This document shows positions 3,663 to 12,475 of a stretch of DNA of 47,026 nt, in pieces. How positions within the stretch are numbered: position 1 is the stretch's first letter; every line of letters starts with the position of its first letter. The notes below the pieces were generated by a model that saw nothing but the letters and a program-made list of their open reading frames with translations, ran no database searches and was not told the DNA's origin. The stretch is from Chloroflexi bacterium OHK40. Lineage in GTDB: Bacteria > Chloroflexota > Chloroflexia > Chloroflexales > Chloroflexaceae. Location of the stretch: the NCBI GenBank assembly GCA_004367505.1, contig SFCB01000249.1, positions 1 through 47,026 on the forward strand, in the 5' to 3' direction. The position numbers and the translations under genes are program-made.

Positions 3663-4604
3663 TTACGGAGCCTCCTCCGCTCGCCCCAGCGCGTCCAGCG
3701 CGATCGCCGTGGTCAGGGCGGGTGATCCATCGTGGTGGGGTGGGTAGCCGGAGTAGGCGGCGGCGATCGGCCAGGCGCCATCGGGCCCCTGGCTCGCCAG
3801 CAGCGCTTCCAGCGCCCGGTTGGCCGCCGGCCACGCCCCCAGCGCTAGTAGGGCGTTGGCCCGGCAGGCGGTGTGAAAGGGGACGCCGTCGGTGTCCCCG
3901 AGGAGCGCCAGCCCCGCCCGTAGTGCCGGCTCCAGCTCCGGCAGGGGGCCGTCGGCATAGGCGCGGGCCAGCACGTACACCAGCAGGTGCGGCGTGAAGG
4001 TGTAGACGCTCGAGACGTCCAGCAGTCCTTGTTTCGTTATGTCGAGTATATAGGCCAGGGCGCCGGGCAGCGGCTGGCCAAGCAACGCGGCGCAAAACAG
4101 CAGATTGGTATTCACCAGCGCGTCTACCTGGCGAGCGAGCAGATGCGCGCCGCCATTGACGCCCACCCAGGTGTAGTAGGGCCCGCCGGGCGTAGCCTCC
4201 TGCTCCCAGAGTAGCCGGTAGAAGCTCAGGTCCGGGCGCTCGCCGAGCACCAGGAGCGCCGCCACGGCACATGCTGTATCGTCGAGGTCGGGAGGCACGC
4301 GCCGGGTGAGGCGGCCTTCGTAGCTCCACGAGCCGTCCGGGTTACGCTGGGCGCGCAGGTGCGCACCGGCCCGCCGGAGCGTCTCATCGGCGCCGGGCAG
4401 ATGGATGTGGCGGCGCAGGGCATGGATGGCGAAGGTGGTCGTGTAGACGCTACAAGGATAGGCGCGCGCGCCGGCCATCGCGAGATCTGGTGCGGTGCAG
4501 GTAGGCAGTTCGCCCCCGGGACGCTGCATGGTCTGCAACGCGGCCACCGCGCGGCCAGCGGCCAGCCGAAACAGCAACGGGGCGACAATAAACTGCTTAC
4601 CCAC
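3663..4604 (-). CDS. Short squalene-hopene-cyclase-like / prenyltransferase-repeat protein with DxDD motif
   Basis: The 313-residue alpha-toroid protein has a DLDDTA motif (residues 106-111), matching the DxDDTA acid motif of class II terpene cyclases. It also has two QW-type repeats (QRNPDGSW, 86-93; SQGPDGAW, 271-278) and the segment DALVNTNLLF (161-170) seen in squalene-oxidase/prenyltransferase-repeat proteins. Real squalene-hopene cyclases are about 630 residues, so this is roughly one alpha/alpha barrel. It could be a single-domain cyclase, half of a heteromer, or a non-catalytic toroid. GTG 4604 starts 5 nt after the phosphatase stop, so the two are almost certainly co-transcribed. It is the last gene of the prenyl-synthase/peptide/phosphatase locus. 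Substrate unknown; cyclase activity is inferred from the motif only. Confidence 0.75.
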   Translation of the reverse strand: MGKQFIVAPLLFRLAAGRAVAALQTMQRPGGELPTCTAPDLAMAGARAYPCSVYTTTFAIHALRRHIHLPGADETLRRAGAHLRAQRNPDGSWSYEGRLTRRVPPDLDDTACAVAALLVLGERPDLSFYRLLWEQEATPGGPYYTWVGVNGGAHLLARQVDALVNTNLLFCAALLGQPLPGALAYILDITKQGLLDVSSVYTFTPHLLVYVLARAYADGPLPELEPALRAGLALLGDTDGVPFHTACRANALLALGAWPAANRALEALLASQGPDGAWPIAAAYSGYPPHHDGSPALTTAIALDALGRAEEAP

Positions 4605-4609
4605 CGGAG

Positions 4610-6046
4610 CTACCCGCCCACAGCGGGCGCCTCCACCTGCACCGGGGCAGACTGGCCACTGAGCGGCTGGGCAACCTGGATCACCACGACGGTAATATCG
4701 TCGTCCTGCTCGGTCTCGCCACGGAAGCCAGCCACTGCCTGCCAGAGTTGCTCGATTGCACGCTCGGGGACCAGCGGGTCAGCCCCGGTGATCGCCGCGC
4801 ACAAACGCTCATAGCCAAAGAGCTCACGGCGATGATTACGCTCCTCGATCAGGCCGTCGCTCACGAGGTAGAGCTGGTCGCCCGGCTGGAGGTGCAGCAC
4901 CTGCTCGCCGTAGCGGGCGTCGGGGCGCGCGCCGAGCGGCAGGCCGGGCTGTTCCAGCTCCAGAAGCGTTCCATTGCGGCGCAGCAGGGGGTAGGGATGC
5001 CCGGCGTTGGAGAAACGCAGTGTCAGGGTGCGTGTATCGAGCACCCCGTAGAAGGCGGTGATCATCTGGTGGGCCGAGTGATCGCGACAGAGCGCCTCGT
5101 TGGCATCGTGGAGCACATCGGCGGGAGGGCCGTGGCGGCGTGCCACGGAGCGCAGGGTACTGCGGGCCAGGGCCATCATGAGCGCGGCGGCAATACTCTT
5201 GCCCGTCACATCGGCCACGACGATCCCCAGCAGGCCATTGTCGAGATCGATGAAGTCGTAAAAGTCGCCGCTCGTCTCACGGGCAGGCTCGGAGCGCGAG
5301 GCGATGTGCAGGTCGGTGCCGGTGAGGGGTGGCGGTGGGTAGAGCCGCTGCTGCAACTCCCGGGCAATCGCGAGATCGCGGCGGATCAGCTCATCCTGCA
5401 TAATCCGGCGGCGCGCGACACTCAGTCGCGCCTCAGAGAACTCGATCGCCCGCAGGTAGAGCCAGGTGATCACGGCGGCGAGGAAGAGAAAGACGGCGAT
5501 CGGTACTCCGATCGATAGGGTTGCGACGAGTGGCACGATCCCCGGGCTCGCTCCGACACCACTAAAGAACTGGTGGAGCAGCGCAATCACCGCGATCGTG
5601 TTGGCGACGGAGAAGATGACGGCATACGCTCCGCCAAGCAGCAAGCCGGCCAGCACCACGCTCAGCGTCAGCACACAGGCGAAGACGGCCCCATTGGCGA
5701 GCCCACTCGCGGTGAGCAGGTTGAGCCCGCTGAGCACCAGGGTACCGCTATTGAGCCAGAGCACGAAGATCACCGCCGCTATACTCGTGCGCCCGAACCG
5801 ATCAAGCACGGCAACGACGATGTTCAACAGCAGGCCAGTCGCGATGATCACGTAGCCCCAGCGCGCCCCGCCGACGCTCACCATCACGGCAAGCCCGACG
5901 AAAGAGGCCGCAATGAGGCTCGCATTGAGCGGGCGCAGGAGCGCCGATCGACGCTGGCGCCGGGTCTCCGGCGCCAGCGCTGCCAGTACGTCTTCGATGT
6001 CGAACGAAACCGTGGCCATAGCGGGCGCTCGACCGTGCTCCGTCAC
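4610..6046 (-). CDS. Polytopic membrane SpoIIE/RsbU-type PP2C serine/threonine phosphatase
   Basis: This 478-residue protein has about six hydrophobic helices between residues 40 and 200, a short coiled linker (EARLSVARRRIMQDEL, ELQQRLYPPPP) and a SpoIIE-class PP2C domain. Catalytic and metal motifs are intact: GDFYD (260-264), VADVTGKS (277-284), SNAGHPYPLL, LVSDGLIEE and DDDITVVVI. Relatives dephosphorylate anti-sigma-factor antagonists or other phosphoproteins in response to a sensor domain. Here the sensor would be the membrane region, which I cannot match to a named ligand domain. The GTG start at 6046 overlaps the TGA of the upstream peptide gene (GTGA), so translation is probably coupled. 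An internal ATG at codon 10 is an alternative. No anti-sigma factor gene is nearby. Confidence 0.88.
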   Translation of the reverse strand: MTEHGRAPAMATVSFDIEDVLAALAPETRRQRRSALLRPLNASLIAASFVGLAVMVSVGGARWGYVIIATGLLLNIVVAVLDRFGRTSIAAVIFVLWLNSGTLVLSGLNLLTASGLANGAVFACVLTLSVVLAGLLLGGAYAVIFSVANTIAVIALLHQFFSGVGASPGIVPLVATLSIGVPIAVFLFLAAVITWLYLRAIEFSEARLSVARRRIMQDELIRRDLAIARELQQRLYPPPPLTGTDLHIASRSEPARETSGDFYDFIDLDNGLLGIVVADVTGKSIAAALMMALARSTLRSVARRHGPPADVLHDANEALCRDHSAHQMITAFYGVLDTRTLTLRFSNAGHPYPLLRRNGTLLELEQPGLPLGARPDARYGEQVLHLQPGDQLYLVSDGLIEERNHRRELFGYERLCAAITGADPLVPERAIEQLWQAVAGFRGETEQDDDITVVVIQVAQPLSGQSAPVQVEAPAVGG

Positions 6047-6264
6047 GCCCAGACGCCACCGGCCGCTGCATCGGTGATCTTGTCGTCGAGGGCAATACCC
6101 TGCCGGGCACGCTGGCGGATCGCTTCACGCACCTGATCCATCTCGTCGGGCGTCAGGGTAAAACCGCCGTCCTTCACAGCTCCATCAGGGTCGCTCAATA
6201 GCCGCTCACGAAACGTTGGGTCAAGGATGGCCCGACCGACAAGCCGCTCGAGATCAGGGCTCAC
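6043..6264 (-). CDS. NHLP-clan leader-like small peptide ending GG-VWA (Os1348-like)
   Basis: The 73-residue peptide begins MSPDLERLVGRAILDPTF, followed by RERLLSDPDGAV and GFTLTPDEMDQVREAI. This FRxxLLxDPxxAxxxxGFxLTxxE signature is typical of nitrile-hydratase-leader-peptide (NHLP/Nif11-like) RiPP precursors and of the stand-alone Os1348-type NHLP proteins I recall from Chloroflexota. It ends DAAAGGVWA: a double glycine at 69-70 followed by only three residues with a single Trp (72). The GTG start at 6264 has a perfect AGGAGG 5 nt upstream. A TTGACA promoter lies just ahead, and the stop overlaps the phosphatase start. No radical SAM, YcaO or peptidase-transporter gene is adjacent; the nearest enzyme is a prenyl-synthase-like protein. 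Whether it is processed or prenylated is unknown. Confidence 0.8.
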   Translation of the reverse strand: MSPDLERLVGRAILDPTFRERLLSDPDGAVKDGGFTLTPDEMDQVREAIRQRARQGIALDDKITDAAAGGVWA

Positions 6265-6294
6265 ACATGCCTCCTGGCGTTCAGCGCTACTGCA

Positions 6295-6323
6295 AGGGTA
6301 ACCCACGCTGGGGAGACTGTCAA
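6295..6323 (-). promoter_or_regulatory. Promoter ahead of the NHLP-like peptide gene
   Basis: On the minus strand a perfect -35 TTGACA (6323-6318) is separated by 17 nt from TACCCT (6300-6295), a weak -10. The predicted start near 6288 leaves about 24 nt before the GTG, containing the AGGAGG. This would transcribe peptide, phosphatase and cyclase independently of the prenyl-synthase gene. Confidence 0.5.
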
Positions 6324-6396
6324 TCGGAGGGGATAGCTCCCGCGCGGTACTCCCGCCTATTGAACGCCTGCGGGCTCTACCATTGGAGCGCAGGCC

Positions 6397-6412
6397 GGCT
6401 CCCGCCGGAGCC
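6397..6412 (-). terminator. GC hairpin just after the prenyl-synthase-like gene
   Basis: GGCTCC (minus strand, 6412-6407) pairs perfectly with GGAGCC (6402-6397) around a four-base loop, ten nucleotides after the stop codon at 6422. There is no T tract, so this is at most a weak or factor-dependent terminator or an mRNA-stabilising stem. It separates the prenyl-synthase gene from the peptide promoter. Confidence 0.35.
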
Positions 6413-6421
6413 TCCAGGGTG

Positions 6422-7408
6422 TCAACCGTCGGGAGGCGCGCTACCGAGCGCCTGCGCGCCAAACACGCTGCGCAGCGTAGCGCGGCGCTGGCGCATCCGG
6501 GCAAAGACGGCCTCGTCGTGGGCGCGCTGCCGCTCGACAAGCTGCTGGAGCCGGCATGGCCCGTAAGGCGCGAGGCGCGCCAGCGCCCGGCTGCAGAGTC
6601 CCGCGTGGGTCTGCTCTACCTGCGCCCAGAACGGTTCAGCCCGGAGCTCGAAGCCGGCCAGCCGCTCCAGGCTCAGGCTCCCCCAGTTCTCCGGCGCTGT
6701 ACGCGCCCGAAGGGAGCGGATCAGCCCCGCCGCAACCACGTTCAAGTGGCCAGCCTTAAGGTCGGCCAGCCAGTCCGAGGCATCGTCGGCGAGCTGGCGC
6801 GCCCCCAGTAGCTGGCGCAGGGCGGAAGCGATGTCGGCGCGCAGCGTGGCTTGCGGCTGCGCCGCCAACGCCAACTGCGCCGTCACCACAAAGCACGCCG
6901 GTCCCGCCCGGTCCATCGCGAGCTCAGGGGTCCAGGCGGCCAGCAGTTCATCACTCACGGTTGCCACGTCCAGCGGGCGCGTGGCCAGTTCGCGAGCGTA
7001 GGCGTGGGCCGAGGCCTCGCTGAGCGCTAGCAGTTCACCCCAGGCATCAGCGCTAGCAAGCAAGCCAGCCTGTTGATAACCATCGAGCGCCCGCGTGAGC
7101 GCGAACTGCGCGACTGGCAGCGCATCCAGGCCCTCGGCACCGTCGATCAGGTCGTCGATCAGCTGCCCGTGCCACCAGAGGTAGAGGCTGGCGCTGCCGA
7201 GCAAATCGCAGCGCCCATCGTCGAGCGGGGCGAGGTCGGTGAGCCAGGCTGGCAGCAGCGCGACGATCCGGCTGAAGGCACCCGTGATCAGGCGGCCCAG
7301 CCGTTCGGTCGCCTGCGCCCGCAGTGGCGGCCCCAACTGCCCTACCGCTGCCCAGGCCCGCCCGGCGATGCGCTCAAACCGGGCCGGCTCGTCGGGAAGC
7401 AGCTCCAT
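6422..7408 (-). CDS. Class I isoprenoid synthase-like protein (trans-IPPS fold, two Asp-rich motifs)
   Basis: The 328-residue all-helical protein has a first aspartate-rich motif DDLID (residues 85-89, in HGQLIDDLIDG) and a second QLADDASD (205-212). These are the two Mg-diphosphate-binding DDxxD motifs of trans-prenyl-diphosphate synthases and related class I terpene enzymes. The sequence between them is not that of a standard FPP/GGPP synthase; the YLWWHGQ lead-in is different. It may be a divergent synthase, a class I cyclase or a ComQ-like peptide prenyltransferase. The ATG at 7408 has GAAGGGA upstream. It is the first gene of the locus containing the NHLP-like peptide, membrane phosphatase and DxDD protein. 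Diphosphate chemistry is likely from intact motifs; the acceptor is unknown. Confidence 0.75.
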   Translation of the reverse strand: MELLPDEPARFERIAGRAWAAVGQLGPPLRAQATERLGRLITGAFSRIVALLPAWLTDLAPLDDGRCDLLGSASLYLWWHGQLIDDLIDGAEGLDALPVAQFALTRALDGYQQAGLLASADAWGELLALSEASAHAYARELATRPLDVATVSDELLAAWTPELAMDRAGPACFVVTAQLALAAQPQATLRADIASALRQLLGARQLADDASDWLADLKAGHLNVVAAGLIRSLRARTAPENWGSLSLERLAGFELRAEPFWAQVEQTHAGLCSRALARLAPYGPCRLQQLVERQRAHDEAVFARMRQRRATLRSVFGAQALGSAPPDG

Positions 7409-7561
7409 TTCGACGTCCCTTCATCCGCGCTTTACCCGGCCATAATCTCGCTGTGGCATACTTGTTGCTGCCGGGCGTTGAAACAGCGCCCTTCGCTTCG
7501 CATTCCTAGATGTAGGCGTGACACGCGGTATAACTCCGCTGCCGACCCTACATCTTGTGGT

Positions 7562-7598
7562 TTATACACACTATATCCACAACATGTGGATAAGTCGA
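7562..7598 (-). promoter_or_regulatory. Putative promoter with palindromic operator / DnaA-box-like cluster
   Basis: On the minus strand TCGACT (7598-7593) and TATAGT (7575-7570) are spaced by exactly 17 nt. The inverted repeat TATCCACA-N3-TGTGGATA (7574-7592) fills that spacer, as in spacer-operator promoters. The same bases form DnaA-box-like 9-mers: a perfect TTATCCACA (7593-7585, minus), ATATCCACA (7573-7581, plus) and TTATACACA (7562-7570, plus). Transcription would begin near 7563, leaving a leader of about 155 nt before the prenyl-synthase-like gene. It could be a regulator site, a DnaA-titration site or part of an origin; the sequence alone does not decide. Confidence 0.45.
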
Positions 7599-7648: not shown

Positions 7649-8482
7649 TCAGACCCGCTCCAGGAGCTCGTGGAGGCGCGGAGCCAGATCGGCGAGCGCC
7701 GGAGGCAAGGGGTCGCCGCGTAGAATAGCCTGCCCGAGGGCCGAGCTCTTCAGCTCCAGGAGCTCGCGCTCCAGCTGGCTATCCATGGTGACATCGCGCT
7801 GGATCGCGCCGTCGCGGATGGTGATCACCCGCTGCGCGGCGGCGGCCACCTCGGTATTGTGAGTCACGAGCACGAGCGTCACCCCTTGCTCACGGTTGAG
7901 CTTGCCGAGCAGGGCCATGATCTCGGCGGTCGTGGCGCTATCAAGGTTGCCGGTGGGCTCGTCGGCGAGCACGATGGCCGGGCGGTTGGCGAGAGCCCGG
8001 GCGATCGCCACGCGCTGCCGCTCGCCGCCTGAGAGCTGATTCGGCAGGTGGTCGCCACGCTGCGCGAGCCCCACCAGCCCCAGCAACTCGGTCGCGCGGG
8101 CGCGCCGCTGGGCCGGCCGCATGGGAAGCTCGTACATCGGCACTTCGACATTCTCGCGGGCGGTGAGGGTGGGCAGCAGGTTATGGCTCTGGAAGACGAA
8201 GCCGATCGTCTGCCCACGGAAGCGGTCCAGGTCGCGCACCTGCGAGAGCGGCGTGCCGCCGACGATCACCTCACCGGAGGTGGGCCGGTCGAGCGCGCCG
8301 ATCAGGTTGAGCAAGGTGGATTTACCGGAGCCCGACGGGCCGACGATCGCCACGACCTCGCCAGCACGGATGCGCAGATCGACGCCGCGCAGGGCCTGGA
8401 CCGGCACTCGCTCGCCGTACACGCGGGTGAGCTGGCGCGTCTCCAACACGTAGTCAGCAGCCATCGGTTTCTCACTACTCAT
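7649..8482 (-). CDS. ABC transporter ATP-binding protein, LolD/MacB type
   Basis: The 277-residue ATPase has Walker A GPSGSGKS, a Q-loop [13 protein letters not shown], the signature [15 protein letters not shown], Walker B IVLADEPT followed by GNLDSAT, and an H-loop VLVTHNTEV. This is the LolD/MacB/FtsE-like subfamily that powers mechanotransmission exporters. A C-terminal extension of about 45 residues after the core domain ([18 protein letters not shown] onward) is unusual. The ATG at 8482 overlaps the permease stop by 8 nt, showing operon coupling; a second ATG at 8464 is possible. Together with the permease and HlyD-like lipoprotein it should form an efflux or lipoprotein/peptide-export complex. 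Substrate unknown. Confidence 0.93.
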
Positions 8483-10718
8483 AGTGCAGCGCCTCGATTG
8501 GCCGCAGGCGCACCGCGCGCCAGGCCGGGAGCAGCCCGCCGATCGCGCCGAGGGCAAGGGCCATGCCGAGCACGCGGCCGAGGGCGTCCAGGGTGTAGGC
8601 CGCCGTGAGGACGTCGCCGTAGATGGGCAGCAGCGCCAGCATGGAGTTCAGACCCACGCCGATCAACACGCCCGCCAGGGCGCTCAGCAGGCTCAGGGCC
8701 AGCGCCTCGATGAGGATCATGCGTAGCACCCGCCCGGCGCGCCAGCCCACGGCCCGCAGCACGCCGATCTCGTGCGTGCGCTCAAAGACGCTCATCAGCA
8801 TCACGTTCATCATCACGATCCCCCCCACCACGAGCATCAGCAGCAGCAAGGCGCCAAAGACCGCGTCGAGCGTGGCGAAGTCCTGCATGCGCGAGGTCAG
8901 ATCCGCCGTGCGGGCCACCATCAACTCGGGGAAGCGGGCTTCGAGCTCGGCGGCCACCTCGGCGGCGCGGTCGGGCTCGTGCAGGGTGATCCCGAGGAAG
9001 GAGACCTGCCGGGGCTTGCCGAAGATGCGCTGGGCCTCTTTCAGCGTCACAACGGCGCCGGTGTCTTCATAGGAGATGCCGGTCTCGAAGATCCCCACAA
9101 TCTCGAAGCTCTGGCCACCGAAGCGCAACTCGTCGCCGACACCTTTGTCGAGGCTGGTGGCGGCCAGCCGGCCAAGGATCAACTCACCAGCCCGCGCGAT
9201 CGTACGCCCCTCCGTCACGCGGTAGTGCTCCAGGTAGCTCTCGCGGGGGTCGAGCCCGTAGACGAGGAAGAAGGGCAGGCCAGGCACGGTGGTGGTGCCG
9301 AAGACGAGCCGGGAGACACTCTTGACGGCGGGATGGGTGCGGAGTTGGTCGGCCAGACGCTCATCGATCGTGGAGAAGGTCGCGTCGGAGGCGCCGGCCT
9401 GCTCGGCGATGATATCGGCCTGGCCGGCGCTGAGCAGCCGGGTGATCATCTGGCGCGAGCCCTCGGCGATCCCGCTCATGGCCACGATCAGGCCAATCCC
9501 CACGCCGAGGCCGGTGAGGGTCATCAGGCTGCGGGTAGGGCGGCGCAGCAGGTTGCGCAGGGCCGGGCCGCGCAGCAGCGGGGCCAGCAGGCGCGCCAGC
9601 AGCCCCCAGCGTACGCTCGCGCCACTCTCGGCCCGCATCGCCTCGACCGGCGCCAGGCGGGCCGCCCGCCAGGCCGGGTAGCCGCCACCCACGAGCCCGA
9701 GCAGGGCAGCGATCAGCAGGGCCTGGGCGACGGCGCCCGGCTCCACCCGGCCGGTGAGGAAGCCGCCGAGGGCGGCACTACGGGCGAAGAGGCTGATCAG
9801 CACAACGCTGAGCAACAGGCCGAGGGCGCCGCCGATCAGCGCCAGCAGCATGGCCTCACTGACAATCATGCGCACCACTCGCCGGCGCCGCCAGCCCATG
9901 GCGCGCAGCACGCCGATCTCGCGGGTGCGCTCCAGCACGCTCATCAACTGGGCGTTCATCATCCCCAGGCCGCCCACCAGGACGGCGAAGAGGCCGATCA
10001 CCCAGCCGAGCGAGCGATAGATCCGCAGCAACTCGTCCTGGTTGGTTGCGTCGCCGGAGCGGGTGGCGGCCAACTCGGGCCAGCGGGCCTCGATCGCCGC
10101 CTTCACCGCCTCGCGCTCGGCCGGGTTGCGGAGCCGCACCTTGAAGTAACTGACCTGTCGGCGCTTATCAAAGGCCCGCTGCGCGTCTTCGAGATGGATG
10201 ACCGCGCCGTTGTCTTCAAAGCTCGAACCGGTCTCGTAGATCCCGACGATGCGGTAGCTGATCTCGTTGATCCGGAACTTATCGCCGACGGTTTTCCGAA
10301 AGTTCTCAGCGCTCTGACGGCCCAGCATCAACTCGCGCCTGGCCGTGAGCGCCCGACCGGCCACCAGCCGGTAGCGCTCGATCGCGAAGCCCCGGGGCTC
10401 CTCGCCGCTCACCAGGAAGTAGGGCGTCTCGGGGAGCTGAAGGATGCCAACCGCCGAACCGACAACCTCGGCGACGCCGGGGATCCGGGCGATCTCCTCG
10501 CCCACACCCTCGTCGATCGCGCCGACGATGATCATCACCGCGTCCTTCTGGCTCACCAGCAGGTCGGCGTCGCCCGAAGCGCTGACGTTCCCGAAGCCAC
10601 GGGCCATGCCCTCGCCGAAGGCCGAGAGCACCACCACACCCGCCACCCCCGCGGCGATCCCGAGGAGTGTGAGCAGGCTGCGCACTTTGCGCCGCAGGAG
10701 GTTTTTGAGGCTGAGCAT
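8475..10718 (-). CDS. Double-length MacB/FtsX-type ABC permease
   Basis: The 747-residue protein is an internal duplication: two MacB_PCD extracellular domains, each with a following FtsX-type three-helix block. Paired motifs show this: SFEDNGAVIHLEDAQRAF and SYEDTGAVVTLKEAQRIF; RTREIGVLRAMGWR and RTHEIGVLRAVGWR. The classical MacB permease has one such unit and works as a dimer, so this fusion may supply both halves in one chain. The ATG at 10718 (MLSLKNLLRRKVRSLLTLLG) gives the usual first helix. It is 5 nt from the HlyD-like gene upstream and overlaps the ATPase gene downstream. Confidence 0.92.
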   Translation of the reverse strand: MLSLKNLLRRKVRSLLTLLGIAAGVAGVVVLSAFGEGMARGFGNVSASGDADLLVSQKDAVMIIVGAIDEGVGEEIARIPGVAEVVGSAVGILQLPETPYFLVSGEEPRGFAIERYRLVAGRALTARRELMLGRQSAENFRKTVGDKFRINEISYRIVGIYETGSSFEDNGAVIHLEDAQRAFDKRRQVSYFKVRLRNPAEREAVKAAIEARWPELAATRSGDATNQDELLRIYRSLGWVIGLFAVLVGGLGMMNAQLMSVLERTREIGVLRAMGWRRRRVVRMIVSEAMLLALIGGALGLLLSVVLISLFARSAALGGFLTGRVEPGAVAQALLIAALLGLVGGGYPAWRAARLAPVEAMRAESGASVRWGLLARLLAPLLRGPALRNLLRRPTRSLMTLTGLGVGIGLIVAMSGIAEGSRQMITRLLSAGQADIIAEQAGASDATFSTIDERLADQLRTHPAVKSVSRLVFGTTTVPGLPFFLVYGLDPRESYLEHYRVTEGRTIARAGELILGRLAATSLDKGVGDELRFGGQSFEIVGIFETGISYEDTGAVVTLKEAQRIFGKPRQVSFLGITLHEPDRAAEVAAELEARFPELMVARTADLTSRMQDFATLDAVFGALLLLMLVVGGIVMMNVMLMSVFERTHEIGVLRAVGWRAGRVLRMILIEALALSLLSALAGVLIGVGLNSMLALLPIYGDVLTAAYTLDALGRVLGMALALGAIGGLLPAWRAVRLRPIEALHYE

Positions 10719-10723
10719 GGGTG

Positions 10724-12208
10724 CTACTCCGCCCCCAGGCTCACCGTGGCCGTCATGTTCCAGCGCAGCCGCTCGTCCCAACTCGTCGGCTCCACCGTGA
10801 CGGTGTAGATCACATCGCCCTGGAAGGTTTTGCCAAGGGCCTCGATCTCGGCGACGACCCCATCGAGGGTGAGCTCCGGCAGGGCATCGAAGCTGATGAG
10901 CACCGGGTCGCCCTCGCGCACAAACACCACATCGAGCTCGGTGAGGTCGCTGGTCTCCACACGCCAGGCGCGCAGGTCGGCCAGCACCAGGGCCGGGGCA
11001 TCGGCGGGCGGCTGCTCGCCCGGCTCCAGGTTCAGCTCAACCACGGTGCCATCGAAGGGTGCGGTGAGGGTTGCCCGCCCCAGGGCCACTTCGGCACGCC
11101 TGAGGGCGGCCTGGCTGGCGCGTACGCGGGCTTCGGCAGCGGCGAGCTCGGGCGCGCGCGCAGGAGCCAGCAGTTCCCGGAGGGCGGCCTCGGCCTCAAC
11201 CACGGCTGCCTGGGCAGCGGCGATCTCACCGGCGCGAGCCTCTCCGCTCAGGCGAGCAAGGTTGGCCTCGGCGCTGGCCACGCGGGCCCGGGCGGCGGCG
11301 AGCGCATCGGCATCGGAGCCCTGGAGCAGCTGATCGAGGGCGGCCTGCGCGTCCCGAAGCCCGGCCTCAGCGGCGGCGACGCCCGTCTGCTCGGCCTGGC
11401 GCGCTTGATCCAGCTCGACCCGCGCCTGTGCCACGGCGGCCTCACTATTCTCGACAGCGCGCAAGGCGGCGGTTTCGGCATCGGCGCGCTCGCGGGGCAG
11501 GTCGCCGGGGAGCCGCTCCAACTCCCTGTTCTCCCAGTAGATCCGGCTGTAGGCGTCCTGGGCGTCGCGCAACTGGTTGGCGGCCTGCGCCAGCCGCAGC
11601 TCAGCCTCGGTCTTTGCGGCGGAGCGAGCGTCGCGTTCGGCCAGGAGCGCGGCCTCGGCCCGGGCTACCGCAGCGCGGGCCCGTTCGACCTCCGTGCTCC
11701 TGGGGCCAGCCTCGAGCCGGGCAAGGAGCGCGCGGGCCTCTTGCAGCTCGGCCGTCGCGGCCCGCAGGTCGGCGTCGGTGATACTCCCGACCGTCTGCTG
11801 CTCGGCAGCCCGGGCCTGCGCCAGACGCGCCTCGGCGGCGGCCACGGCCTCAGGCTGGGCCCCAGCCTGGAGCAACTCATAGCGGGCGGCGGCCTCGTCC
11901 ACGGCGGCACGGGCTTCGTCCACGGCGGCTTCGAGCTCGGCCGTATCGAGGCGGGCCAGCGGGATGCCGGCGGCCACCTGCTGGCCCTCGGCCACGAGCA
12001 CCTCCGCCACAGTGCCCACGCTCGTAAAGCGTAGCTCCGCGCTACGAGCAGGCACCACGCGGCCATCGGCCACAACGCGAGGAGCTGGCTCCAGGGCCTC
12101 GAGATCGGGCGTAGGGGTCGGGGGATTCGCCCCGGGCATACCGCAGCCAGCCAGCAACAATACGGTCAGTACTGCGCAAAAGGGCGAACGGACAGCGCGC
12201 AGGGACAT
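10724..12208 (-). CDS. HlyD/MacA-like periplasmic adaptor lipoprotein
   Basis: The 494-residue protein has a lipoprotein signal (lipobox LLAGC, Cys22), then a Pro/Thr linker. A split biotinyl-lipoyl half-motif (VVPARSAELRFTSVGTVAEVLVAEGQQVAAG) and its C-terminal partner (LTAPFDGTVVELNLEPGEQ) flank an Ala/Glu-rich coiled coil of about 300 residues. A beta-barrel domain and membrane-proximal region follow. This is the membrane-fusion/adaptor subunit of a MacAB-like exporter. The ATG at 12208 has GGAGG 7 nt upstream. The coiled coil is much longer than in MacA. It is the first gene of the three-gene export operon; no outer-membrane channel gene is present, as expected for a cell without a classical outer membrane. 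Confidence 0.92.
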   Translation of the reverse strand: MSLRAVRSPFCAVLTVLLLAGCGMPGANPPTPTPDLEALEPAPRVVADGRVVPARSAELRFTSVGTVAEVLVAEGQQVAAGIPLARLDTAELEAAVDEARAAVDEAAARYELLQAGAQPEAVAAAEARLAQARAAEQQTVGSITDADLRAATAELQEARALLARLEAGPRSTEVERARAAVARAEAALLAERDARSAAKTEAELRLAQAANQLRDAQDAYSRIYWENRELERLPGDLPRERADAETAALRAVENSEAAVAQARVELDQARQAEQTGVAAAEAGLRDAQAALDQLLQGSDADALAAARARVASAEANLARLSGEARAGEIAAAQAAVVEAEAALRELLAPARAPELAAAEARVRASQAALRRAEVALGRATLTAPFDGTVVELNLEPGEQPPADAPALVLADLRAWRVETSDLTELDVVFVREGDPVLISFDALPELTLDGVVAEIEALGKTFQGDVIYTVTVEPTSWDERLRWNMTATVSLGAE

Positions 12209-12475
12209 CGAAAACCTCCACAGAGCGGCCCACCTCGGGCCACCCATGCGGGCGGCGGCGCGGCCAGAGCCGGTCGTCGTCCAGGGCTGCTGTTCACGCT
12301 ATGATACAACCATTGCTCAAATCCGGCATCACGCCATTGGCGGATATCGACGCCCTGTGCGGAGAAGAGATATTCACGCCACCTGAAGGACTCTTTTCGC
12401 CTGGCGCGCGCTGGCGGGCTAGGATGGGAGCAACCCCGGCGAACAACGAGCGGCGCAGCGGAAAGGAGCACGGCC

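Follow-up and report, generated by a model that had tools for sequence, protein, structure and literature searches.

A candidate prenylated-tryptophan peptide cassette with a membrane PP2C phosphatase in place of a sensor kinase in Chloroflexales

The closest published system that we found to the four-gene cassette described here, which lies in a 47,026-nt stretch of DNA from Chloroflexi bacterium OHK40 (contig SFCB01000249.1, positions 1 to 47,026 of the forward strand; this whole analysed stretch is called the window), is PalQ/PalX/PalP of Paenibacillus alvei. As described, PalQ is an enzyme of the isoprenoid-synthase superfamily that prenylates indole C3 of the C-terminal tryptophan of an NHLP precursor, PalX, and a histidine kinase, PalP, is encoded in the same cluster (PMC10853753). 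PalQ acts on the C-terminal tryptophan, and added alanines abolished its activity (PMC10853753); low activity is reported on an internal tryptophan flanked by glycines (PMC13290415). PalX is cleaved to an octapeptide by P. alvei lysate (PMC10853753). The peptide prenyltransferases resembling trans-isoprenyl diphosphate synthases are given as ComQ, PalQ and the P domain of ChrPC, and all characterised members modify tryptophan (PMC13290415). In ChrPC, the P domain installs a prenyl group, and the C domain helps it to cyclise (PMC13290415). For ComQXPA of Bacillus, a published census reports no locus outside Firmicutes (PMC4008528).

The cassette resembles PalQXP in that one cluster encodes an isoprenoid-synthase-superfamily enzyme, an NHLP precursor with a conserved C-terminal tryptophan and a sensor-type protein. 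However, PalP is a histidine kinase and the protein here is a membrane PP2C phosphatase; a terminal tryptophan is required by PalQ, whereas here it is terminal in 3 of 25 peptides and the window peptide ends VWA; and a terpene cyclase is added here in 6 of 22 genomes. Because the tryptophan is usually second-last and the sensor is a phosphatase, the cassette is a variant of PalQXP rather than a member. It shares with ComQXPA an enzyme resembling isoprenyl diphosphate synthases, a small precursor with a tryptophan near the C-terminus and an adjoining multi-pass membrane sensor (PMC4008528, PMC13290415), and the variability of ComX and of the ComP membrane domain resembles that of the peptide tail and the phosphatase membrane domain here (PMC4008528). 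It differs in the precursor family and in the sensor, since ComP is a kinase with a response regulator, ComA. Tryptophan prenylation followed by prenyl cyclisation by a cyclase domain, as described for ChrPC, would also find a likeness here, but the two steps would fall to separate proteins, and the ChrPC text cited mentions no sensor phosphatase (PMC13290415). We consider it probable, at roughly 0.65, that the cassette encodes a ribosomal lipopeptide signalling system like PalQXP and ComQXPA, in which a prenylated tryptophan tail is sensed by a PP2C phosphatase that replaces the kinase. A first-pass annotation of the window, which proposed a prenylated or terpenoid peptide system with a phosphatase output, knew of no description of this combination. 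An enzyme, an NHLP peptide and a sensor kinase are in fact published together as PalQXP; the phosphatase version was not found in the literature that we searched, with most subscription journals outside the search.

The open reading frames of the window place the cassette as four genes in series, all on the minus strand. The isoprenoid-synthase-fold protein, a probable tryptophan prenyltransferase of PalQ/ComQ type (6422..7408, 328 aa), carries a first Asp-rich motif at D85..D89 (DDLID, 7156-7142) and a glutamine with a second Asp-rich motif at Q205..D212 (QLADDASD, 6796-6773). It is followed by the precursor peptide of the NHLP/Os1348 clan (6043..6264, GTG start at 6264, 73 aa, ending AAAGGVWA), which has a ribosome-binding-like AGGAGG ahead of it at 6275-6270 and its Trp72 codon at 6051-6049. 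The third gene (4610..6019) encodes a membrane domain of about the first 200 residues and a SpoIIE/PP2C phosphatase domain (PF07228), and the fourth (3663..4604, GTG start at 4604, 313 aa), 5 nt past the phosphatase stop, encodes a one-domain class II terpene-cyclase-like toroid with a DLDD motif (DLDDTA, 4289-4278). The first-pass annotation had listed these four genes with the same motifs, peptide length and 5-nt spacing, and all are present; it let the locus run to 7598, which is 190 nt past the start of the first gene at 7408. It also began the phosphatase at a GTG (6046) that overlaps the peptide stop. This is probably wrong, because the starts of the homologues match ATG 6019, which lies 23 nt after the peptide stop and is the likely start.

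The arrangement is not due to chance, because its genes recur in 22 of the 82 genomes of the window's order that made up the main survey. Strong enzyme-profile matches (E about 6e-95 or lower) were found in 22 of these genomes, and a tryptophan-ended peptide with an adjoining phosphatase was found in the same 22. Some of the 60 enzyme-negative genomes are incomplete. When the survey is restricted to the 56 genomes with a completeness of 90% or more and a contamination of 5% or less, a strong match to the enzyme is found in 18 (G027 left out). Enzyme-profile matches in G027 (E 0.006) and G065 (E 0.0099) are at chance level and were set aside. In many genomes just a part of the first-look candidates was scored, up to 27 for the enzyme, 28 for the toroid and 5 for a 400-genome sample of the phylum, and alignments comprised 11 rows for the peptide and the phosphatase, 16 for the enzyme and the membrane domain and 5 for the toroid, out of the 22 cassette genomes. 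The enzyme and the peptide share a contig in 13 of the 22 genomes, and in G005 the two lie at contig ends that match. The eight genomes of family f3 have the enzyme gene on another contig or far off (at 2.82 Mb versus 0.87 Mb on a single contig in G053) and no peptide was found in its fetched flanks, and still the two genes co-occur. In the mixed genera g6 (3 genomes with, 3 without), g10 (7 and 1) and g12 (1 and 2), each genome has either both the enzyme and the peptide or neither. Their joint loss and their co-occurrence even when unlinked are our strongest evidence that the enzyme and the peptide function together. Fisher and 1/C(82,22) probabilities for this co-occurrence take no account of relatedness among the genomes and are not relied on here. 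The first-pass annotation had named peptide homologues that regularly lack a prenyl-synthase gene as evidence against its idea; no such pattern was found among the tryptophan-ended, phosphatase-linked peptides, and it is other, tryptophan-less NHLP paralogues that do occur where the enzyme is absent.

Two loci illustrate the loss. In G061, a one-contig genome, the flanks of the cassette of a relative (L038) align around an empty site (L136:6147-6597) from which the three-gene cassette is absent, with 71% identity up to L136 position 6147 and 68% from 6597. A profile of the phosphatase membrane domain gave strong matches in the 22 genomes and in G011 (E 2e-56), and weak matches in G052, G019 and G051 (E 3e-9 to 3e-7). 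The G011 locus (L135:3514-4745) is a remnant in which a permease and an ATPase are directly followed by the phosphatase and then by the end of a cobW gene; neither the enzyme nor the peptide is there, and the frame of the phosphatase gene is interrupted, although a sequencing error is possible in this draft assembly. Beyond the order, the 400-genome sample gave 21 enzyme matches at E 1e-6, of which 18 are in genomes of the order and three are weak and partial. Of the latter, those in G242 and G249 are fused enzyme-cyclase proteins, described below, and that in G169 is a 426-aa protein with no Pfam match. An enzyme scan of a genome contig collection gave three distant partial matches (two in Falkowbacteria, one in Ruegeria), and a plasmid search with the enzyme gave zero matches.

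The precursor peptide belongs to the Os1348 family of the NHLP clan (NF038399, 64.1 bits versus a curated cut-off of 40; PF14407, 53.8 bits versus 48), as judged by family scans with Pfam and NCBIfam over eight window proteins, in which the peptide query had one extra N-terminal codon. No ComX-family match to the peptide was found at E 0.1; NHLP/Frankia_peptide families were found instead. The alignment of 11 homologues shows that the leader is conserved and that the tail is variable save for a tryptophan at or beside the end: mean pairwise identity is 59% in the leader and 25% in the tail ahead of the tryptophan. In all 25 phosphatase-linked peptides the tryptophan lies within the last three residues, at -1 in 3, at -2 in 21 and at -3 in 1. 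In contrast, a tryptophan near the end was found in none of the 18 NHLP paralogues read outside cassette loci and in none of 39 further paralogue stretches, one of which repeats two of the 18 and two of which end at contig ends. Many of these paralogues form a separate family of about 72 aa with typical ends RGF[VIFM], GKGF[VIL] or TGLM, and no enzyme, phosphatase or toroid match was found near them where flanks were searched. This tryptophan-less peptide of about 72 aa (e.g., L076, G000:C265:19260-19427) occurs once per genome in many genomes of the order. The idea of a prenylated or terpenoid peptide is thus strongly supported by comparison, through the invariant near-terminal tryptophan, the distribution shared across 22 of 82 genomes and the tested analogue PalQ/PalX.

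In a set of 158 genomes of the class, a search at E 1e-5 also found NHLP peptides in six that lie outside the order; these were not counted as cassettes. Four NHLP loci of family f5 end [WF]FR[LVI]GP, with tryptophan at -6 in G082 and G083 and phenylalanine there in G085 and G086, and at E 1e-3 their flanks gave no match to the enzyme, the phosphatase or the toroid; in G084, where the peptide only was read, a tryptophan also stands at -6. The f5 peptides (L139-L142), one or two per locus, lie near a conserved pair of genes, identified by eye as a response-regulator-like gene and a large gene whose start resembles a zinc ribbon.

The form of the tail also bears on whether the product leaves the cell. 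It is conceivable, and in our estimate unlikely, that the prenylated peptide is no extracellular signal at all and remains in the producer's membrane, where it would serve the phosphatase as a small regulatory subunit. The peptide adjoins the phosphatase in 22 of 22 genomes, as such a subunit would, neither an exporter nor a protease was recognised next to most loci, and Os1348 is reported to have crystallised as a folded dimer (PMC7726476). However, a variable tail with a fixed tryptophan favours a released product, and so does the reported cleavage of PalX to an octapeptide (PMC10853753). A single phosphatase is moreover preceded by tandem peptides with different tails, three in G044 and two in G057, which speaks against this reading. 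At L073:6880-7886, three tandem NHLP peptides with unlike tails, each ending in tryptophan plus one residue, are followed by one phosphatase.

At E 0.1, the enzyme of the window had no match in Pfam or NCBIfam, the Pfam polyprenyl synthetase model included, and a sequence search of the PDB with the enzyme profile gave nothing significant (best E 0.3). Its AlphaFold2 model, built from 16 homologues, has a pLDDT of 92.2 and a pTM of 0.88, and aligns with the solved polyprenyl synthase 4jyx (VIA Z 24.1, root-mean-square deviation 2.6, 279 residues aligned, 14% identity). All 16 aligned enzyme rows share D85, D89, R204, Q205, D208, D209 and D212. Chain-elongating enzymes bind isopentenyl diphosphate (IPP) through two signatures, GKxR near the N-terminus and RRG after the first Asp motif, and neither was found in any of the 16 aligned rows. 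A glutamine before the second Asp motif is common in ordinary polyprenyl synthases too, so Q205 is compatible with the tryptophan-prenylating group and does not discriminate it. The paired aspartates of both motifs are found in PalQ, known to us from its description, as D89/D93 and D200/D204, and here as D85/D89 and D208/D212, and the glutamine three residues ahead of the second motif is Q197 in PalQ and Q205 here. In the described group, the glutamine just upstream of the second motif and the first aspartate of that motif form a hydrogen-bonding pair near the indole NH (PMC13290415). By these comparisons, the enzyme very likely prenylates the tryptophan of the peptide. In genus g20, a prenyltransferase-like gene (L032:9711-10697, with a similar one at L036:8004-8987) is followed by a gene with a DnaJ domain, recognised by Pfam in L032 and by eye in L036, and not by a peptide and a phosphatase.

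We regard it as very improbable that the enzyme makes a free prenyl diphosphate or terpene for the toroid and that the peptide is incidental. The fold of the enzyme is that of polyprenyl diphosphate synthases and the toroid is terpene-cyclase-like, as this explanation would have it; but the IPP-site signatures are missing throughout the alignment, the Pfam polyprenyl synthetase model is not matched, the enzyme has its distribution in common with the tryptophan peptide, and most of the cassette genomes have no strong match to the toroid that it would serve.

Tryptophan prenylation being the preferred reading, the phosphatase is the candidate sensor of its product. It matches PF07228 (SpoIIE) at 183.4 bits versus a cut-off of 25, and D261, D279, D397, D449 and D450 (numbered from GTG 6046) are invariant in 11 of 11 aligned sequences. 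This catalytic family is shared with the SpoIIE/RsbU PPM phosphatases, for which the cited text describes no adjoining prenylated-peptide gene set (PMC11418112). The six membrane helices of the first-pass annotation are plausible and not established: plain hydropathy of the N-terminal part gives five segments above threshold in the window protein and four to six over 11 homologues, with six in 3 of 11. The phosphatase adjoins the tryptophan-ended peptide in every cassette genome. Across 11 cassettes, its mean pairwise identity is 58% in the catalytic domain and 35% in the membrane domain, and in a pair from the same genus (G032 and G028) the values are 89% and 43%. Similarity of the peptide tail correlates with similarity of the membrane domain when the leader and the catalytic domain are controlled for (partial Mantel r 0.60, p 0.0008, 5000 permutations, 11 cassettes), although Mantel tests are liberal under shared ancestry, which may inflate this correlation. 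A phosphatase output fits because of the fixed adjacency, the shared distribution, the co-variation of the tail and the membrane domain, and the decay of the phosphatase where the enzyme and the peptide are gone. These observations agree with the output that the first-pass annotation proposed; the sensing step itself is an inference.

PPM phosphatases of the SpoIIE/RsbU family are described as dephosphorylating STAS anti-anti-sigma factors and thereby controlling transcription (PMC11418112). The genome of the window contains 22 matches to RsbW-like ATPases, seven of them above 75 bits, and the family scan found no kinase or response regulator among the eight window proteins.

The toroid remained below the cut-offs of the Pfam SQHop models (20.9 versus 26.2 bits and 15.8 versus 26.1 bits). 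Its model (pLDDT 79.6) gave the best VIA Z values, 22-23, to squalene-hopene cyclases, drimenyl diphosphate synthase (SsDMS) and MstE, with glycosidase toroids next at 20-21, and D106, D108 and D109 of the DxDD motif are invariant in 5 of 5 aligned sequences. According to their titles, MstE structures were solved with farnesyl and geranylgeranyl dihydroxybenzoate, in which the prenyl chain is already on an aromatic ring. Strong toroid homologues were found in 6 of the 82 genomes, all within the 22 cassette genomes, and the gene lies directly after the phosphatase in five of the six and on the same contig in G057. Further toroid matches, with E values between 1.4e-6 and 1.0e-5, span no more than 135 positions and were taken as other proteins. 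Because 16 of the 22 genomes have no strong match, the toroid stands outside the cassette core. It is therefore likely that the window product is a cyclised-terpene peptide and that the products of most relatives carry a linear prenyl group.

A pairing of such an enzyme with a cyclase also occurs elsewhere in the phylum. In G242 and G249, an enzyme-like domain is fused to a squalene-hopene-type cyclase in a 681-aa protein (L125:5238-7283 and L126:3565-5610), beside a radical SAM/SPASM maturase for ribosomally synthesised and post-translationally modified peptides, which makes these loci candidate terpenoid-peptide clusters. Pfam SQHop_cyclase_C is above its cut-off in the fused protein. Because an hhalign comparison of the toroid profile with its cyclase part was not significant (probability 5%), the fusion backs the pairing of enzyme and cyclase generally and not orthology with the window toroid.

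Directly upstream of the cassette, on the minus strand, the family scans place an ATPase of an ATP-binding cassette (ABC) transporter of LolD/MacB type (7649..8557), with a duplicated MacB/FtsX-type permease (8475..10781) and an HlyD-type membrane-fusion protein (10724..12247) belonging to the same module. The module is at most a candidate exporter of the product. In G028, as in the window, the HlyD-permease-ATPase module is directly upstream of the cassette; the G030 contig shows its ATPase alone, at the contig edge, and in G032 one gene stands between module and cassette. The remnant locus of G011 also has a homologous module. These exporter genes bear on a possible role of the product as a lipopeptide antibiotic or bacteriocin, whose production the phosphatase would control as a self-sensing or stress regulator. 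NHLP precursors are often found in bacteriocin-type clusters, and a MacB-type exporter near four loci would suit such a product. The peptide shares its NCBIfam family with Os1348 of Pseudomonas sp. Os17, which has been linked to antibiotic activity; its partner genes differ, and the words prenyl, tryptophan and phosphatase are absent from the main text of that report (PMC7726476). On the other hand, no immunity gene was recognised, the constant partner of the peptide is the phosphatase and not a transporter, and the G011 remnant retains the exporter genes with the enzyme and the peptide gone and the phosphatase broken, so we hold an antibiotic role to be decidedly unlikely.

Several observations weigh against a prenylated-peptide signal sensed by the phosphatase. 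The tryptophan is second-last in most peptides although C-terminal extension inactivated PalQ. The toroid is missing as a strong match from most cassette genomes, as given above, and in the stretches fetched a MacB-type module accompanies the cassette in only 4 of 22 genomes; no leader protease was recognised. In genus g10, the two phosphatase domains differ little in their conservation, and several pairs are more similar in the membrane domain (e.g., 87%) than in the catalytic domain (81%). The cassette shows no gene for a STAS or anti-sigma protein. In G057 and G044, PAS-type histidine kinases are encoded about 1 kb (L029:2996-4207) and 3.6 kb (L031:4135-5817), respectively, from the unlinked enzyme gene, and in G005 a response regulator lies about 3 kb from the enzyme gene. 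Neither the kinases nor the regulator adjoin a peptide in the stretches read, but a kinase may play a part at these loci.

The following course of events would account for the cassette. By comparison with PalQ, the isoprenoid-synthase-fold protein very likely binds the precursor at the NHLP part and uses a prenyl diphosphate to attach a C10-C20 prenyl group to the second-last tryptophan. In the window genome and five relatives, the toroid may then cyclise the prenyl chain by proton-initiated DxDD chemistry. The leader would be removed, and the short lipidated tail would exit the cell, here perhaps via the upstream MacB-type exporter. Recognition of the tail would fall to the membrane domain of the SpoIIE-type PP2C phosphatase encoded next to the peptide, and the phosphatase activity would change. 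As its family suggests, the target of the phosphatase is probably a phosphorylated STAS anti-anti-sigma protein, through which transcription would be altered. A more specific form of this proposal, in which a cyclised-terpene tryptophan pheromone is read at the surface by a transmembrane PP2C phosphatase/anti-anti-sigma switch and not by a two-component system, and is kept by many members of the order, is tentative, and we put it at somewhat less than an even chance.

If the prenylated-peptide reading is true, prenylated-tryptophan peptide signalling has an exchangeable sensor, with a phosphatase able to stand in for a histidine kinase, and the enzyme extends tryptophan prenylation to the second-last position. 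The optional, separate cyclase would then be a tool for making terpene-decorated peptides. To our knowledge, the extracellular inputs of membrane phosphatases of SpoIIE/RsbU type are mostly unknown, and the comparative genomics presented here names a specific candidate ligand for one of them.

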